Shown: in pieces, positions 3,970-38,674 of the stretch
Position numbering within the stretch: the first letter of the stretch is position 1
Layout of the letters: each line of letters begins with the position of its first letter
Virus record (IMG/VR): IMGVR_UViG_3300012096_000011
Span: 1 to 39,656 of that record
From: a virus
Length of the DNA stretch: 39,656 nt
Strand: one strand, 5' to 3'
Translations under genes and position numbers: made by a program
Notes under the pieces: model-generated
Databases searched by the model: none
What the model was told of the DNA's origin: nothing
Seen by the model: the letters and a program-made list of their open reading frames with translations, nothing else

Positions 3970-5479
3970 CCCCGCCCTCCTTGATTGGCTCGCCTCTTGC
4001 TCGAACGATCCGGTGAAGTTCGTTCTCGAAGCTTTCCCTTGGGGCGAGAACCGGCTAGCAGGGTTTGAAGGACCGGAGGATTGGCAATGGAATGTGCTCG
4101 AACGGATCAAATCTGGCCTCCCAATTGACCAAGCAATCCAGCTTGCGACTGCGTCTGGCCATGGTGTCGGAAAGAGTTGTTTGGTTGCGTGGATCATCCT
4201 TTGGTCCATCTCGACAATGACCGACACTAGAGGAGTGGTAACGGCCAATACCGAAACACAGCTTAAAACTAAGACCTGGGCCGAGCTAGGGAAATGGTAC
4301 AACCTGTTCATCGCGAGGGAGTTGTTTCATCTCTCCGCCACGGCCCTGTTCTCTGTTGATCGAGATCACGAAAGGACTTGGCGCATCGATATGGTCCCTT
4401 GGTCGGAGCGCAACACCGAGGCCTTCGCTGGTCTCCATAACCGTGGCCGAAGGATCCTGGTCCTGTTCGATGAGGCCTCGGCCATTCCCGATATCATCTG
4501 GGAAACCACCGAAGGGGCCTTGACTGATGCCGATACCCAGATCATCTGGGCGGTGTTCGGGAACCCGACCAGAAACACCGGGCGGTTTAGGGCTTGCTTC
4601 GAGCCAGGGAGCTTCTGGCAAACCAAGCGTGTGGATTCGAGAACGATTTCCTTCACCAACAAATCCCAGATCGATCGATGGATCAAGTTCTATGGCCTTG
4701 ACTCCGACTTCGTGAGGATCAGGATCCTCGGGGAGTTCCCCCGGGTTGGCGAGATGGAGTTCTTCTCTGGAACGGATGTAGATGAGGCGATGGTCAGGGA
4801 GGTGGAGCCCTTCGGAGCCTTGGCTCTTGGGGTAGATGTCGCGCGGTTTGGGGCTAACTTCTCCGTGCTATTCCCCCGGCGAGGGAGAGATGCGAGAACG
4901 ATTCCTAGAAGACGCTTTCAAGGCCTTTCAACCGTCGACCTCGCGGACAAGGTGTTTGAGTTCAATCGGGAGATCCGGGCCGATGGGATTCTCGTGGATG
5001 GGGGTGGGGTCGGAGGCGGGGTGGTAGATCAAATCCGCCACCGGCAACTTCATTGCTTTGAGGTTCAGTTCGGGGCCAAAGCCACTGGTCTTGGATACGA
5101 ATCCAATACCCAAGGTGAACGCTACGCCAACAAGAGGGCCGAGATGTATGGATCCCTTCGAGCTTGGCTCAAGGGTGGGGCCCTCCCGCCTGATCCAGAT
5201 CTCAAGAAGCAACTCGCTTCTATCACCTACACACTCAACAACCGGGACGAGATTATTCTAACCTCGAAAGAGGTCATGATGAGGGAGGGCCGGGAGAGCC
5301 CGGACGACATTGACGCGTTGGCATGTACCTTCGCCTATCCGATCGAGGCTAAGGCTTTGAGGTTTGGGGAGCCTTGGATCGCTCATGATGACGTGGTATC
5401 GGAATATGAACCGTATGCTATCTTAACAAAGAATAATATACCCTCGTCGGATTATAGCCCTTTTAGAAGCCTCTCCTAA
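3962..5479 (+). CDS. terL: Terminase large subunit
   Basis: 505 residues from the ATG at 3962 (MSSPALLDWLASC). The ATPase half has Walker A ASGHGVGKSCLVAW (~residues 63-76) and Walker B ILVLFDEASAIPD (~residues 165-178). The RNase H-like nuclease half shows acidic motifs LGVDVARFG (~288), ILVDGGGVGGG (~343) and a final SPDDIDALACTFA (~447-459). It would power DNA translocation into the prohead and cut the concatemer. The last ~20 residues (ILTKNNIPSSDYSPFRSLS) are AT-rich in codons and look different from the body. The gene ends TAATG, with the next gene's ATG inside: a homing endonuclease gene. Confidence 0.93.
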   Translation: MSSPALLDWLASCSNDPVKFVLEAFPWGENRLAGFEGPEDWQWNVLERIKSGLPIDQAIQLATASGHGVGKSCLVAWIILWSISTMTDTRGVVTANTETQLKTKTWAELGKWYNLFIARELFHLSATALFSVDRDHERTWRIDMVPWSERNTEAFAGLHNRGRRILVLFDEASAIPDIIWETTEGALTDADTQIIWAVFGNPTRNTGRFRACFEPGSFWQTKRVDSRTISFTNKSQIDRWIKFYGLDSDFVRIRILGEFPRVGEMEFFSGTDVDEAMVREVEPFGALALGVDVARFGANFSVLFPRRGRDARTIPRRRFQGLSTVDLADKVFEFNREIRADGILVDGGGVGGGVVDQIRHRQLHCFEVQFGAKATGLGYESNTQGERYANKRAEMYGSLRAWLKGGALPPDPDLKKQLASITYTLNNRDEIILTSKEVMMREGRESPDDIDALACTFAYPIEAKALRFGEPWIAHDDVVSEYEPYAILTKNNIPSSDYSPFRSLS

Positions 5480-5868
5480 TGATATCGGATCTAGAAATTG
5501 GTTGGCTTGCAGGAATTTTAGAGGGCGAGGGTTGCTTCCTTATGCGCAGTAGACATAAGAATTCTCAAAGCGTTAATATTGAATCAACTGATGAAGATGT
5601 TATAAATAAGGTAGCATTGATAGTTGAAAGATTAACTGGCAAGTTATATAATGTAGGTTTTCGCGAACCACAAACTGGGTTTCTTAATGCAAAAGAAAGA
5701 TATACCTTGCAAGTAAATGGCGAACCGGCTAGGATAGTTATGCGTACTATTGTAAGGTATATGTGTAGTCGCCGGCGTCAGCGTATTTGGCAATGTCTTA
5801 ATGGCTATAGATCACCAAAGAAACTAAGTCGGGAAGAACTCTTTCAAGCCCTTAAACTCGTTAGTTAG
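5479..5868 (+). CDS. LAGLIDADG homing endonuclease, free-standing
   Basis: 129 residues. WLAGILEGEGCF (~residues 9-20) is a LAGLIDADG motif whose conserved acidic residue (Glu) would bind metal in the nuclease. The protein has a single motif, so it would work as a dimer. The C-terminal segment SRRRQRIWQCLN is shared with the second copy at 20138-20512. Codons are much more AT-rich than the neighbours, a sign of transfer. Its ATG lies inside the TerL stop (TAATG), so it rides on TerL translation. It is not inside an intron or intein as far as I can see. Confidence 0.85.
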   Translation: MISDLEIGWLAGILEGEGCFLMRSRHKNSQSVNIESTDEDVINKVALIVERLTGKLYNVGFREPQTGFLNAKERYTLQVNGEPARIVMRTIVRYMCSRRRQRIWQCLNGYRSPKKLSREELFQALKLVS

Positions 5869-33428: not shown

Positions 33429-33685
33429 GTGATCACCGAGAATACAATAATCGTTGGCATCTTGATAAGAGGGTTCCTATAGCTCTGATTACAGCCATGA
33501 CGATTCAGATTGTAATCTTTGCCTATTGGGTTGGAGGGTTTAATAATCGTGTTGAGCAGCTAGAAAAGCAAATGATATTGATGGTTCCACAAGGCGAGAA
33601 GATTATTCGACTCGAGACTAAGGTGGACGAAATTCATAACTCCGTGAACGAAATCAAATCTTGGGTTAGGCCAAAAGGGCCTTAA
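33425..33685 (+). CDS. Small membrane-anchored coiled-coil protein (86 aa)
   Basis: One membrane segment at ~20-38 (IALITAMTIQIVIFAYWVGG) after a charged head, then a coiled coil (NNRVEQLEKQMILMVPQGEK; RLETKVDEIHNSVNEIKSWV). This layout fits an inner-membrane spanin or a type III holin-like protein; which one cannot be decided. It is the last rightward gene and meets the minus-strand helicase tail to tail with a 20 bp overlap and a weak AGGCC/GGCCT hairpin (33668-33682). Confidence 0.65.
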   Translation: MSDHREYNNRWHLDKRVPIALITAMTIQIVIFAYWVGGFNNRVEQLEKQMILMVPQGEKIIRLETKVDEIHNSVNEIKSWVRPKGP

Positions 33686-34886
33686 AGTATCGCAGGCCCT
33701 GTCGATCGACCTTGCTTACCTTAATCATTCCCGAACTCATCATCAAATCCAACGTTTTGCTAACCACATGAACCGGGAGTCGTTCGCAGGCGAACCGAAC
33801 AACTTTGGTTTCATTTGGTTCATCCTTTTCCCTAATGAAGTGTGCAATTTCGTCCATTGCTCTTGAATCGAGGTTAACCCTCGCGGCAAAGATGTAAGGC
33901 ATTTGGCTCTCGGCTTGGGTCAGCCAAGCGAAAGCCCGGTTGAAATCCTGAATAGTGATCCTTAAAGTGTCTCCCCGATCAGCCGAAGAGACCATAGATA
34001 GCTTCAACACGTGGGCCAAACGCCTAGAGTTATAGTGCTGGAGCTTGGGATGGTTTGGGACTGGGCGAAGCCCCCCAGATCTCCAAGCATTGATCTGATT
34101 TCGATACTCTTCATCGATCTCGAACTGGCCCTTGAGGGCGTAGATGGCAGTTAGGTCATGCATTAGATCGTTGCTTGAGTCCTTCACTGGGATATTGAAC
34201 AGGTCCTCCTGGAATGGTCGATCGTCAGCAAAGATCATGATTGTTCTGGACATAAAGCCTTGATCCCAAGCTCCACTAGGGAGTAGATCATGGAGATGGG
34301 AGGTAGTGTCTCCAGCCAAGATGGAAAGCTGAGGATTAGGAATAGAGATACTAATTCCCGCTCCTCTTCTAGTTTGGCTGTAAGGAACTGTAACGTCGTA
34401 GAAAGTAGTAAGATTTGCAACAAGTGCATTGTCATAGTCATTGAGTAAGGCTCCTAGTTCATCCGGGAGAAGAAGCATTGAGTTGTACTCAATCGGCGGC
34501 TCGGGATGGAGGATTATTCTCTTGTTCGCGGCAGCGAGGGCATCTACGAGCGAAGCTCCAGTTGTACTCGTTGGGGCAATCTTGAACTCTGGTAGCTTCC
34601 GCAAGAAACGTCCAGCAGCCTTTATGGTGTTTGACTTTCCAATCCCAGGTGGTCCCACAAGAAAGACATAGAGATTGGGAAACAACGGTGAACTTGTCAC
34701 CATAAAGCATCGCTGCTCTAGCACACTCGCTATCGTCACTATCCCTGCCCATGTGCGATAAATCTCCGACGTCTCGATGTTGTCTGTCCACTCAACGAAG
34801 GACTCGATCCAAGAGCGGCACTTCCTCTGGGCGCTTCCGTTTGTCTTGTTCAAAATAGGATTTGAGCCCTGAGGGATTCGTGTCAC
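33666..34886 (-). CDS. P-loop helicase/primase-helicase (DUF3987-like)
   Basis: 406 residues from the GTG at 34886, which has GGAGA 5-6 bases upstream; a longer frame to ATG 34949 overlaps the polymerase more. IESFVEWTDNIETSEIYRTW and AGIVTIASVLEQRC start the domain; Walker A VGPPGIGKSNTIKAA; Walker B-like MLLLPDELGALLND; AGDTTSHLHDLLP follows. The C-terminus (RFACERLPVHVVSKTLDLMM) is a winged-helix-like tail. DUF3987-type phage proteins of this kind sit beside polymerases and are thought to unwind DNA. The start overlaps the polymerase 3' end by 95 bp. Confidence 0.7.
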   Translation of the reverse strand: MTRIPQGSNPILNKTNGSAQRKCRSWIESFVEWTDNIETSEIYRTWAGIVTIASVLEQRCFMVTSSPLFPNLYVFLVGPPGIGKSNTIKAAGRFLRKLPEFKIAPTSTTGASLVDALAAANKRIILHPEPPIEYNSMLLLPDELGALLNDYDNALVANLTTFYDVTVPYSQTRRGAGISISIPNPQLSILAGDTTSHLHDLLPSGAWDQGFMSRTIMIFADDRPFQEDLFNIPVKDSSNDLMHDLTAIYALKGQFEIDEEYRNQINAWRSGGLRPVPNHPKLQHYNSRRLAHVLKLSMVSSADRGDTLRITIQDFNRAFAWLTQAESQMPYIFAARVNLDSRAMDEIAHFIREKDEPNETKVVRFACERLPVHVVSKTLDLMMSSGMIKVSKVDRQGLRYFKALLA

Positions 34887-36282
34887 TTGCTTCTCCAAAG
34901 TTCCATCCAGTTTTGCATCCGTAGGGAATGATAAGCTCGCGATTCCCAATCTGAACGGGATAATTCAATTGCTTAATGATCTTTGATACAATCTCGTCCT
35001 CCCTTTCCTCCGGGTATTGGACAACTATCGCGTCGTGGATTTGCATCAAGAGCTGGCAATCTCTTTCCTTCCAGACCTGGAGCATTCCTTGGTTAACAAT
35101 ATCAGCAAGGGAGCCCTGGGGGTCAAAGGCAATTGCCTCTCTTACGGTCTCTGGATCGTTTCGCCTACCCCAGAATTGGCGCTTTCGCCCAGTTAGATTA
35201 ATAAGAAATCCATCTTTAAGGAGCTTACTCTCTACCCATGCATGCCACCTTAAGTGGGAGGGAAAGGCTTTGAAGTAGATTGGTTGAAACTCCTCAATCA
35301 ACTCCACGTCTACTTTAGCTTGACTAGCAAGGGTTCTGGGCTTGCCGGCATAGTTGGTTCCATGACCAATCTTCTTACACATGAACCGTCGTGAATAGTG
35401 ACGGTAATATGGTTGTTCGGCCAGAGCCTTATCAAGTCTAGGATCTCCTGTCCAAAGGAGTTTGGGCCATACGAGCTTCGCCACTGTTGTATGGAGATCT
35501 CCTGACTCGCAGGCATCGAGATAACGGCTGTCATGAAAGAGAACATATTCTATTCCTCCAACCACTCTGCTCTCGCCCTGCTCTGCGTCGAAGTATCCCA
35601 TCTTCATCCCTGGGTCGGCGACTAGGACTGAGCGGAGGGCATCTTCGATATTTTGAAGGTTTCCACCAGTTCCGAACTCGGAGAGCGAAGAAGATAAGCG
35701 ACCAGTGTTAGTCCCTCCAATATTATAGGAGGTCCGAATTCGTCCGTCAGGATCAATATCGGTTTTAAGTACCGAGATCTTCTTAGCAATATCACGCATA
35801 GTCTTAATGTGTGAGATAATAGGACGAGCCACAAGGTAGGCTTCCATCTTCTCCAACGCGTTGCGGTCAACGGTAGGATTGCTTGAGCCTCGCTTGTGTA
35901 TGACCGGAATTCCAAGACGATCATAGAAAAGCTCCCTTAAATGGTCGTTGCTTCGCCAATTGAACCCGAACTGCCCAACCCCTTCGTGAACGATTCGAAC
36001 TAGGTTTCCTTCGAGTCGGTCAAGGAGATCATAGTATTGTTCCACCACTTCCGACTTACGTTGTCGGTCCACCAATACTCCTCGTAGCCGCATTTCGAGC
36101 ACTGGACCTTGTAGTGCCTTAGAGAAGGCGTACGTTTTAGCAGTGTGGCTGTCCAGTTGTGGCGACAAGATGTCGAGGAGCTCGGCGGTGATGAGGCAGT
36201 CGAGTCCATTGTAAACCCATTCCCTTTCCATCGGCTTGAGGCGATCAGGAGTCATTTTGTTGGTTTGGGTTATCTTAGCCAT
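34792..36282 (-). CDS. DNA polymerase, family A: C-terminal polymerase part
   Basis: 496 residues from MAKITQTNKM at 36282. It begins just before the ExoIII motif EREWVYNGLDC (~residues 19-29), so it carries only the end of the 3'-5' exonuclease. The polymerase domain is complete: motif A MGYFDAEQGESRVV (catalytic Asp), motif B RRFMCKKIGHGTNYAG, motif C LMQIHDAIVVQYPEE (HD). The N-terminal remainder is encoded by 36481-37500 in the same frame, with a 68-codon gene and several stops between. It would act as the replicative polymerase, presumably assembling with the exonuclease subunit. Confidence 0.85.
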   Translation of the reverse strand: MAKITQTNKMTPDRLKPMEREWVYNGLDCLITAELLDILSPQLDSHTAKTYAFSKALQGPVLEMRLRGVLVDRQRKSEVVEQYYDLLDRLEGNLVRIVHEGVGQFGFNWRSNDHLRELFYDRLGIPVIHKRGSSNPTVDRNALEKMEAYLVARPIISHIKTMRDIAKKISVLKTDIDPDGRIRTSYNIGGTNTGRLSSSLSEFGTGGNLQNIEDALRSVLVADPGMKMGYFDAEQGESRVVGGIEYVLFHDSRYLDACESGDLHTTVAKLVWPKLLWTGDPRLDKALAEQPYYRHYSRRFMCKKIGHGTNYAGKPRTLASQAKVDVELIEEFQPIYFKAFPSHLRWHAWVESKLLKDGFLINLTGRKRQFWGRRNDPETVREAIAFDPQGSLADIVNQGMLQVWKERDCQLLMQIHDAIVVQYPEEREDEIVSKIIKQLNYPVQIGNRELIIPYGCKTGWNFGEASDTNPSGLKSYFEQDKRKRPEEVPLLDRVLR

Positions 36283-36481
36283 ATTGATTTTCTGATATTT
36301 CCAATTCATCGCGAATTTCAGCTGCTGTCATATCATCAGGGAGTTCGCGTACAACGGCGTAGACTATTTGTCGTATAGTATCAGGTGAGTGGTATCTGAC
36401 TCTAGGCTTGTTTAACGAGGATAAACCAACACTTTTACATGAACAAGCTGACTCTATTGCCTCTTTCAGGTTTTGATTCAT
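36275..36481 (-). CDS. 68-aa ORF inserted in the DNA polymerase
   Basis: MNQNLKEAIESACSCKSVGL... with C-terminal SPDTIRQIVYAVVRELPDDM and TAAEIRDELEISENQYG. Starts inside the stop of the exonuclease part (TAATG) and overlaps the start of the polymerase part by 8 bp. AT-rich like the two LAGLIDADG genes. The C-terminal half may form a helix-turn-helix. No endonuclease motif is visible; it could be the remnant or accessory part of a mobile element. The insertion is a multiple of three. Confidence 0.55.
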   Translation of the reverse strand: MNQNLKEAIESACSCKSVGLSSLNKPRVRYHSPDTIRQIVYAVVRELPDDMTAAEIRDELEISENQYG

Positions 36482-37500
36482 TAGTCATCCCTCTTTATCG
36501 TCCTCTTACCCCTGCTCCGCATATCCTTCCAACTTCCCTCGTCGCAATAAACACTTCCCAAAAACCCCAATCCCTTGAGGCTTTCGGGCTGAAGGGAATA
36601 GTGGAGGAGCATCGTATCCTCACTTGCGTTAGCTACTTTGATTCCGTATCCCCGATAGAGGAAGGAGACATCGTAGAGTCCATTTTGGAATAGCTTTGGC
36701 AAAAGCGGATTACTGCAAGTGTTTGCAATATAGTTCCACACACTTCTTTCAAGCTCATGAGTTGGCCAATAATTTTTTCCAAGCTTTTTGGGGTCAAAGA
36801 ATGGGATAACAATTGCACGTCTTGGGCTAGGAGCAAATCCAATGCACGTAATTCCTCGTCCTGCCGTTTCAATATCAACGCTAAGGATTCGACAGCCTTC
36901 GATGTATCGCTTGTGGAACGCATAAATATCCTCCAAGGTTGGCTCGATCCAGACCTCGCGAAACGGGCGGCGGATTTCTGGGAAAGCGGATTCTCGTTTG
37001 GCTTTTACAAGGTCAATGACTCCAATGGGTCGCAGGTCCCACTGGCGTAGTATTGCAGCAGGATGGTAGGTCGGTAAACACTTGAACCCGGACGCACAAT
37101 GAGTTGACAAAGTTGTAGTTCCTCGAAACTTGGATATAGTCGTTCGACCAGTAAGCGCCCACAGCGCAGTGTTGCCCAGCGCAACAACCAGGTTGGGATT
37201 AACTTCGAGAAGCTCATTGCTCAATCTCTCAAGTTCTGGGGCAAACTCTGCCCGAATATATAGCCCTTTTCCAAGAGCCGGATAGCCAGGGATAGCTTGC
37301 GATTTAGGTCCGCATAAAGTTTCGATCTTGTTTCCTTTGGGGCGGAGATTGAACACATTGGTGATGTAAGTGTCCGCTCGATGAATGCCAGCTTCGCCCA
37401 GCATTTTTGTAAGTTCGTATCCAGCTGATCCGGAGAATGGGATTCGGGTTCGTTCTTCTTCTTCGCCATAACTTTCTCCAACTAAGACAATGTTGGTCAT
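36481..37500 (-). CDS. DNA polymerase N-terminal part: UDG-like domain plus 3'-5' exonuclease
   Basis: 339 residues. Residues 1-~185 are a uracil-DNA-glycosylase superfamily domain: LVGESYGEEEERTRIPFSGS, VALGNTALWALTG and TYHPAAILR (the HPxxxLR motif). Residues ~200-325 are the DNA polymerase I-type exonuclease: ExoI ILSVDIETAG, ExoII LFQNGLYDVSFL, then EDTMLLHYSLQPESLKGL. The ExoIII motif is missing here and lies in the next polymerase ORF. The UDG-plus-PolA order is that of SPO1-type polymerases, normally one chain. The ATG follows GGGGA, which may be sequestered by a hairpin. Confidence 0.85.
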   Translation of the reverse strand: MTNIVLVGESYGEEEERTRIPFSGSAGYELTKMLGEAGIHRADTYITNVFNLRPKGNKIETLCGPKSQAIPGYPALGKGLYIRAEFAPELERLSNELLEVNPNLVVALGNTALWALTGRTTISKFRGTTTLSTHCASGFKCLPTYHPAAILRQWDLRPIGVIDLVKAKRESAFPEIRRPFREVWIEPTLEDIYAFHKRYIEGCRILSVDIETAGRGITCIGFAPSPRRAIVIPFFDPKKLGKNYWPTHELERSVWNYIANTCSNPLLPKLFQNGLYDVSFLYRGYGIKVANASEDTMLLHYSLQPESLKGLGFLGSVYCDEGSWKDMRSRGKRTIKRDD

Positions 37501-37504
37501 GCTT

Positions 37505-37541
37505 TCCCCAAACGAAAAGGGGAGGAGCCTTCGCCCCTCCC
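37505..37541 (-). terminator. Intrinsic terminator with an overlapping alternative hairpin (attenuator-like)
   Basis: On the minus strand GGGAGG (37541-37536) pairs with CCTCCC (37525-37520) around a short GC-capped loop, followed by TTTTCGTTT. An alternative stem pairs TCCCC (37523-37519) with GGGGA (37509-37505), the ribosome site of 36481-37500. The two stems share bases and exclude each other. This can act as a terminator or as a switch on polymerase synthesis. Confidence 0.6.
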
Positions 37542-37549
37542 TGATTTAT

Positions 37550-37888
37550 TTAGACCAATACCCCAGCCCAAGCATCGCCTATGGGTATAATGAGAGGCAT
37601 AGTCCAATATACCTGCTTACCCTTCATCCTAGCCCAACGGATTTCGTTGGTTGTGGACTGACCGTAATAGCCATCTTCGTTTAGCACGACGATTCCATCT
37701 GAGTTGTCGATCTTAGCGAAGTGGATCTGGTCGAGGATTGTCTTCTGCTCCTCGGTAAGGCCATTACCCTCCTCTAATGAGTTATATACAGCTAAGCCGT
37801 ATACGACATGGCCAGCTAGACCCAGCTTCGTGCTCCACTCATGAAAGCGGGGCTCGAACTTGCGACTGCCGCAAAGAGTTAGTCTCAT
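37550..37888 (-). CDS. Nucleoside 2-deoxyribosyltransferase-like protein
   Basis: 112 residues from MRLTLCGSRKFEPRFHEWST; the ATG at 37888 has GGAGG upstream, whereas an earlier ATG lacks one. The fold pattern LCGSRKF ... KIDNSDGIVVLNEDGYYGQS ... TTNEIRWARMKGKQVYW matches the deoxyribosyltransferase/DUF4406-like superfamily, with DSDGxVVxN and the GxSTxxEIxWA helix. Such proteins act on nucleosides or bind nucleotides; the true substrate is unknown. A terminator-like hairpin follows. Confidence 0.65.
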   Translation of the reverse strand: MRLTLCGSRKFEPRFHEWSTKLGLAGHVVYGLAVYNSLEEGNGLTEEQKTILDQIHFAKIDNSDGIVVLNEDGYYGQSTTNEIRWARMKGKQVYWTMPLIIPIGDAWAGVLV

Positions 37889-37890
37889 TT

Positions 37891-37971
37891 CTACCTCCAT
37901 TTGGCCAAAAGCCAAGGCAATAATCCCATCATTGCGATGACCAATAGCATTATGACTAGTTCCCAGGGCAT
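37891..37971 (-). CDS. Tiny single-pass membrane protein (26 aa)
   Basis: MPWELVIMLLVIAMMGLLPW then LLAKWR: one hydrophobic helix with a basic C-terminal end. GGAGAG lies 5-6 bases upstream. It fills the gap between the ssDNA-binding-like and deoxyribosyltransferase-like genes. Function unknown. Confidence 0.5.
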   Translation of the reverse strand: MPWELVIMLLVIAMMGLLPWLLAKWR

Positions 37972-37974
37972 TGG

Positions 37975-38409
37975 CTACTCTCCAACCTTTGCAGTTCCAC
38001 CAATCTCTCCAAAGATTGACTGCCCATCCTCGCTGGCCCGATGCTTGATCGTTGCGAGGACGCTTGAGCCGGGAGCTTCATCGATCATCTGGCGTAAGGT
38101 TTGGGATTCATCAATCCCAAGATCGACGAGGAACTTCTTCAAGCGCCAAGCGGCGTCTTCGGTGAGATAGAATGTGGCTTTAATGGCCCGGGAGGCAAAT
38201 CCTCCCATCTCATCCAAAGCCTCTTGATCCACGTCGTCAAGGGTTCCGGTTGGTTGAAGGGTAAACTCGACGAAGTCGGTTTGTTTCTTGGAGGATTTGT
38301 CGAACCTTGGAAGGCCCTTGACGACGCATTCGTAGGTTCCGGTTGGTAGGGGCTTGGGACGTTCGATTTCTGAGGATTGCCGGTCGAGAATATCTTGAAA
38401 AGATGCCAT
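37975..38409 (-). CDS. Probable ssDNA-binding protein (144 aa)
   Basis: MASFQDILDRQSSEIERPKP then LPTGTYECVVKGLPRFDKSS, a beta-rich core (QTDFVEFTLQPTG; RAIKATFYLTEDAAWRLKKF) and GSSVLATIKHRASEDGQSIF. This matches the small OB-like proteins (DUF669-like) that accompany Sak4-type ATPases and serve as single-strand binding partners. AAGGA precedes the ATG. The Sak4-like ATPase is two genes upstream. Confidence 0.6.
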   Translation of the reverse strand: MASFQDILDRQSSEIERPKPLPTGTYECVVKGLPRFDKSSKKQTDFVEFTLQPTGTLDDVDQEALDEMGGFASRAIKATFYLTEDAAWRLKKFLVDLGIDESQTLRQMIDEAPGSSVLATIKHRASEDGQSIFGEIGGTAKVGE

Positions 38410-38419
38410 GGTTATGTCC

Positions 38420-38674
38420 TTATTCTGCTGGTTCGTAGGTTGCTTCGAAGATGTTCGGTTTGCAGGGGTAGATTTCTCCTTTCACTCCTTTGATGATCCA
38501 GTCGCCTGGGTTGGCGGTCATGGTTTCTTCCATGGTTTGAATTCGTAGAAACTGATCATAAACCTGAATGATTTCTTTCTCCAGTGCTTCGATGTACCAA
38601 TCAGGCGCTGGGCTCGGTGTGTCTGGTAACCATTGTATGGCTTCGATGACAACTGATTTCTTTCGATATTTCAT
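38420..38674 (-). CDS. Conserved phage protein with PGDWIIKG motif (84 aa)
   Basis: MKYRKKSVVIEAIQWLPDTP ... TMTANPGDWIIKGVKGEIYP then CKPNIFEATYEPAE. This small beta-rich family is very common in phages and prophages; its function is not established. Its ATG overlaps the stop of the ATPase gene as ATGA. Confidence 0.75.
   Translation of the reverse strand: MKYRKKSVVIEAIQWLPDTPSPAPDWYIEALEKEIIQVYDQFLRIQTMEETMTANPGDWIIKGVKGEIYPCKPNIFEATYEPAE

Follow-up and report, generated by a model that had tools for sequence, protein, structure and literature searches.

In Aeromonas phages 25 and 44RR, the replicative polymerase is split into two chains, gp43A and gp43B, which co-purify and are active (Petrov et al. 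2010, as reviewed in PMC2988022); the break is occupied by the homing gene seg43 in one relative, and another has a different intercistronic sequence there. In phage Aeh1, insertion of the homing gene mobE splits the enzyme NrdA at a critical region, and an active enzyme forms again from the pieces; T4 mobE has a UAAUGA-type overlap, comparable to the overlap described below (PMC2988022). Split inteins with a homing gene between the halves have been termed 'fractured genes' (Dassa et al. 2009, as cited in PMC6892783). The OM43 phages MEP401 and MEP402, like most related metagenomic genomes, encode a family A polymerase as two ORFs, which are separated by a small unknown ORF (PMC10580990). Gene 31 of SPO1, which encodes a homologous polymerase with uracil-DNA glycosylase (UDG), exonuclease and PolA parts, is targeted by a homing element, a group I intron with an HNH endonuclease. 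The cultured Caulobacter phage Kuura (OQ067476; PMC9959647) has the same split as the locus studied here, with two small ORFs in the slot.

Here we analysed a stretch of viral DNA of 39,656 nucleotides (IMG/VR record IMGVR_UViG_3300012096_000011), hereafter the window, in which a UDG-family A polymerase is encoded by two genes with a 68-codon ORF between them (Table 1). The locus works like gp43A/gp43B; the replicative polymerase lies in two adjacent genes that are colinear with a fused relative and homing genes occur at the break in relatives. It differs in the enzyme family, the exact break within the exonuclease, clade-wide fixation and cargo diversity. The gp43A/gp43B split concerns a family B polymerase in few phages, whereas here a UDG-family A polymerase is cut between exonuclease motifs II and III in a whole clade, with about 90 cargo types. 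Moreover, the gp43A and gp43B chains were shown to be associated and active, whereas a working pair is suggested here by invariant catalytic residues. Aeh1 NrdA is a different enzyme and a single case, unlike the present slot, which has been reused by unrelated, mostly non-nuclease genes. In MEP401 and MEP402 the break lies inside the polymerase domain and the authors suspected an intron, in an account without slot turnover or catalytic-residue analysis (PMC10580990). The SPO1 intron is spliced and lies at another position, whereas the present locus consists of two stable genes and no intron. Among the open-licence papers searched, no description of this UDG-PolA split was found, which is not proof of absence.

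Table 1 Features of the split polymerase locus (window positions)
Feature	Positions	Strand	Basis
Chain B, family A polymerase preceded by the last exonuclease helix, which carries motif III	34792..36282	-	Pfam DNA_pol_A 4.6e-32
Exonuclease motif III, Tyr24 and Asp28 of chain B	36199..36213	-	Invariant in 72/72 relatives with residues there
ATGGCTAA, 8-nt overlap of the conserved chain B start with the stop of the 68-codon ORF	36275..36282	-	Sequence
Cargo ORF, 68 codons plus stop, 207 nt	36275..36481	-	Slot between chain A and chain B
TAATG, overlap of the chain A stop with the start of the 68-codon ORF, one base common	36479..36483	-	Sequence
Chain A, 339 aa, family-4/UdgX-like uracil-DNA glycosylase and N-terminal 3'-5' exonuclease (motifs I and II)	36481..37500	-	Pfam
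AGAGGG, Shine-Dalgarno-like, within the final codons of chain A and positioned for the ORF that follows	36489..36494	-	
Exonuclease motif II, Asn273 and Asp277 of chain A	36670..36684	-	Invariant in 73/73 relatives
Exonuclease motif I, Asp209 and Glu211 of chain A	36868..36876	-	Invariant in 73/73 relatives

Chain A matched the Pfam families UDG (1.9e-21) and DNA_pol_A_exo1 (5.5e-4), and its C-terminus reads TIKRDD before the stop codon. The chain B ORF is open from 36309, upstream of the start at 36282 that relatives use; the conserved start there is MAKITQT, and relatives begin with MAKITQT or MKIIxT. The two chains matched adjoining parts of PHROG 17, a UDG-exonuclease-polymerase profile, with chain A covering positions 481-799 and chain B positions 808-1239. 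An AF2 model of chain A, built with 48 relatives, had a mean pLDDT of 89.1 and was confident to about residue 300, after which pLDDT dropped, first to 63-65 and then, at the final residues, to 42. Residues 178-339 of chain A align to Klenow 324-493 (Z 14.4), and profile position 19 of chain B aligns with residue 170 of the Klenow construct, which we take to be about residue 493 in the standard 324-928 numbering. The break is located at Klenow residue 493, which lies after motif II and four residues short of Tyr497 in motif III. Because catalytic residues persist on both chains, the two chains would assemble into a working exonuclease, whose proofreading site is probably rebuilt from two polypeptides.

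An IMG/VR search with chain B recovered 80 relatives, mostly 50-75% identical, and a wider alignment search added more, giving 144 loci with intact junctions, of which 127 were distinct. The halves were separate genes in all 144 loci in which both were intact, and nothing lay between them in 33 of the 127 distinct junctions. Fused single ORFs were confined to distant outgroups (MW202489, Microcystis phage Mel-JY34, Desulfofustis phage LS06, vir526 and EBPR podovirus 3), with which chains A and B of the window align colinearly. A tree of both chains separated fused from split polymerases with a support of 0.997, consistent with a single fission. Two other UDG-PolA polymerases are annotated as two ORFs with different break points, in Vibrio phage VS-ABTNL-3 (L091, 3456-6590), which has a 184-aa ORF between its polymerase pieces, and in MW202554 (L092, 1727-4364); these breaks are apparently independent fissions.

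Since close relatives without an insert are split too, the 68-codon ORF is not the cause of the split. The ORF is genuine, but it does not interrupt an intact gene, and the proposal in the earlier note of a new type of coding insertion is not supported, because the polymerase is split in every close relative, empty ones included. Several of that note's observations hold. The ORF is AT-rich, with a GC content of 39.6% vs 51.7% for the window and 48.0% and 48.8% for its neighbours, which places it in the lowest 1.1% of 207-nt windows. It overlaps both flanking genes by stop and start codons, and it sits between the two polymerase parts without breaking expression. The observation that its length is a multiple of three is correct but carries no weight, since slot lengths in relatives are distributed 42/29/23 over the three remainders.

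Joining of the halves by RNA or protein splicing, through an intron or a split intein, would have precedents in the group I intron of the homologous SPO1 gene and in the 'fractured genes' mentioned above. However, a search for RNA families in Rfam gave no match in window positions 33600-38000 (E<=1) or in 16 relatives (gathering threshold), and thus no group I or II intron core around the insert, a possibility that the earlier note had raised. Empty sites keep a stop and a start codon in every frame relation (-8 to +2), and the extra tails of chain A (about 13 residues) and chain B (about 17) leave no room for intein halves, none of which were found at the chain ends. We therefore regard splicing as extremely unlikely. 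Programmed frameshifting or readthrough joining the chains was also rejected, as every frame is represented among the empty junctions (-8, -4, -1, 0, +1 and +2) and filled slots hold whole genes.

The remaining 94 distinct junctions were filled with 92 to 1629 nt, compared with -8 to +29 nt in the 33 empty ones, most of which are stop/start overlaps. Across the 94 filled slots, the longest ORF on the polymerase strand covered on average 0.81 of the slot, vs 0.37 on the other strand. Dinucleotide shuffles also gave a coverage of 0.37, and 92 of the 94 slots exceeded their own shuffles. As a class, the slot ORFs are thus beyond chance. Greedy tiling of the slots yielded 145 cargo ORFs in 90 blast clusters, although some small tiled ORFs may be spurious. 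Cargo included a deoxynucleotide kinase, DUF6378, DUF1937/DUF4406-type, RecBCD-inhibitor-like and zinc-ribbon proteins, and many unknowns. One cargo gene (L075, 3759-4004) had PHROG matches to host RecBCD nuclease inhibitors (E 2.8e-9) and is a possible counter-defence gene within the polymerase break. A 119-aa slot gene (L007, 2411-2770) strongly matched parts of the larger PHROG families 8593 and 14118 (E 1.8e-53). Two genes outside the slot in the window resemble slot cargo of other phages. A DUF4406-like gene lies between ssb and chain A (37550-37915, minus strand), and DUF1937/DUF4406 types are slot cargo elsewhere; an 84-aa gene (38420-38674, minus strand), missing from the closest relative, L003, is homologous to slot cargo of L142 and L158.

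Slot contents turned over among closely related phages, at 95-99% identity. Among 17 phage pairs with at least 95% identity over the two chains, 12 differed in slot content. The closest relative of the window, L003 (96.3%; 94-97% over 8 kb), carries an unrelated 72-aa ORF in its slot. Between these two phages, identity in 60-nt bins was 72, 82, 80, 90 and then 100% going upstream from the slot, and 63, 85 and then 97-100% going downstream, so that the flanks are 63-82% identical next to the slot and reach 97-100% again less than about 250 nt away. Such a dip would be expected from cargo exchange through recombination or gene conversion in which flanking DNA is taken along, and relaxed constraint on the chain ends may add to it. 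There were mosaic tracts in other places too. The slot is not uniquely mobile, because the sak4|ssb and ssb|exo junctions vary as well, while the pol|primase junction is nearly fixed (no extra DNA in 71 of 77). Nine cargo clusters (ten including the self-match of the window) had matches outside the slot, mostly in neighbouring junctions. This variability of other junctions, and the cargo found there, indicate that the break serves in the same way as other gene boundaries of the operon.

The 68-aa protein could alternatively be a true third subunit that bridges or regulates both polymerase chains, given the location of its ORF at the exonuclease break and its translational coupling with both halves. 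However, relatives that are 96% identical in the polymerase carry an unrelated ORF or nothing at this position, and the 90 cargo clusters, being unrelated, cannot all represent a subunit, which makes this explanation very unlikely.

The earlier note had also suggested that the ORF is a remnant of a homing element or the DNA-binding part of one. HNH, GIY-YIG or endonuclease VII genes were carried by 16 of the 94 filled slots (domains HNH_3, Endonuclease_7 and GIY-YIG, the last just below the cut-off), so the slot is truly linked to homing elements. Of 22 HNH_3 matches in 38 whole records, five fell in the slot, which makes up 0.8% of their DNA, although two of these five came from near-identical phages. 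Site occupancy in relatives therefore bears out the suggested link to homing genes, but the split exists without an insert too. The profile scan found no HNH_3 match in the window. A 129-aa ORF at 5479-5868 (plus strand) of the window had a LAGLIDADG_3 match just below the cut-off (E 9.8e-6, 21.4 bits), and is probably one of the homing endonucleases with which the note had compared the insert.

Scans of Pfam, PHROGs and NCBIfam detected no domain above the cut-off in the 68-aa protein, with HNH, GIY-YIG, LAGLIDADG, NUMOD and IENR all absent; the note had likewise seen no LAGLIDADG, HNH or GIY-YIG motif. The helix-turn-helix (HTH) that it considered possible corresponds to an HTH_20 match that does exist but, at 16.4 bits against a cut-off of 27, is too weak to be convincing. 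A single-sequence AF2 model of the 68 aa alone was of low confidence (pLDDT 62.5). A tblastn search gave near full-length matches on two Azospirillum replicons (plasmids; E 0.06 and 0.8), with identities of 44% and 39% over 60 residues, and further Azospirillum members were recovered with the three-sequence alignment as query. One match is an annotated 60-aa gene in prophage surroundings, where its neighbours are a tyrosine recombinase gene and a gene of the Gam family. The window ORF aligns colinearly with its homologues over 60 residues, and RELPxDMTxAExRD is conserved between them. A profile built only from Azospirillum sequences scored the window ORF at 35.2 bits, compared with 10.5 for the best of 20,000 shuffles, a test that calls for some discount since it is partly favourable to a family found with the 68-aa query itself. 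By sequence comparison, the 68-codon ORF is homologous to this free-standing Azospirillum prophage gene. Searches of cultured phages by tblastn gave only short chance matches. An IMG/VR match in L083, which spans 19 residues and is not part of a matching gene, was dismissed as chance, and a match to phrog_12068 (18.2 bits) was set aside because the Azospirillum homologue had no match to that family.

These results bear on whether the ORF is a decayed homing endonuclease or a DNA-binding module (NUMOD, IENR or HTH) that has lost its nuclease part. The nuclease genes in relatives' slots, the weak HTH_20 match and the AT-richness shared with many homing genes would fit such an origin. However, the 68 aa have no NUMOD, IENR or HNH match, and the blast cluster of the ORF contains none of the slot nucleases. 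The Azospirillum homologues are complete 60-aa genes, found as ordinary free genes in prophages, an outcome that the note had named as refuting its reading. Because they end right after the second helix, before a recognition helix, a complete HTH is disfavoured. We therefore consider decay from a homing element unlikely, and the note's suggestion is not upheld. The 68-codon ORF is ordinary cargo in an unusual place, neither a polymerase part nor a homing element, and its product is most likely a small early phage protein.

The end of the chain A gene contains an expression signal. A Shine-Dalgarno core was present in its last 15 nt in 87 of 127 phages, vs a frequency of 0.13 in control windows of the same gene; frequencies at other gene ends were 0.44 for sak4, 0.39 for ssb and 0.12 for pol. 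The arginine codon AGG was used in 53% of cases in the chain A tail vs 9% elsewhere. Judging from this codon bias together with the Shine-Dalgarno core, the conserved tail TIK[RK]D[DE] is, at least partly, a ribosome-binding site for the following ORF. In two other phages (L025, 2205-2441; L036, 3765-4001), a 78-aa cargo gene ends in VKRDE, close to the chain A tail TIKKDE of empty junctions, and may re-create a similar end ahead of pol.

Taken together, we consider it very probable that the polymerase gene at this locus is split and offers a cargo slot, and that the 68-codon ORF is one cargo gene. The comparison shows that an ancestor of the clade had one fused gene and that a single, lasting break arose in the loop that separates exonuclease motif II from motif III; chains A and B probably assemble to rebuild the proofreading site. 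Since then the break acts like any other boundary between genes of a tightly packed early operon, where the end of the chain A gene makes an ORF at its stop codon translatable. Small genes are gained, lost and swapped at this place, with recombination in the polymerase DNA on either side as the means. Homing endonuclease genes among the cargo may drive part of this exchange, and the 68-codon ORF is one such cargo gene, encoding a small prophage-type protein. The full scheme is a more tentative proposal, which we hold to be possible rather than probable: a clade-wide two-polypeptide proofreading site whose break is a standing docking site, where the upstream ribosome-binding site serves incoming genes, the polymerase flanks act as recombination arms, and homing endonucleases keep the cargo, the 68-codon ORF included, exchanging.

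The clade-wide split exonuclease with its reusable slot, not the 68-codon ORF, is the interesting part of this locus. Split polymerases were known from single phages or small groups, whereas this one is fixed over well over a hundred phage contigs. Annotation names only chain B as polymerase and overlooks that chain A is the other half; in the Kuura record, for example, only chain B is labelled DNA polymerase and chain A is a hypothetical protein. The point at which the break cuts the exonuclease fold is mapped precisely, and no catalytic residue is affected, so that a natural two-chain proofreading exonuclease becomes testable. The locus provides a clear case in which gene fission turns an essential gene into a site of cargo exchange.
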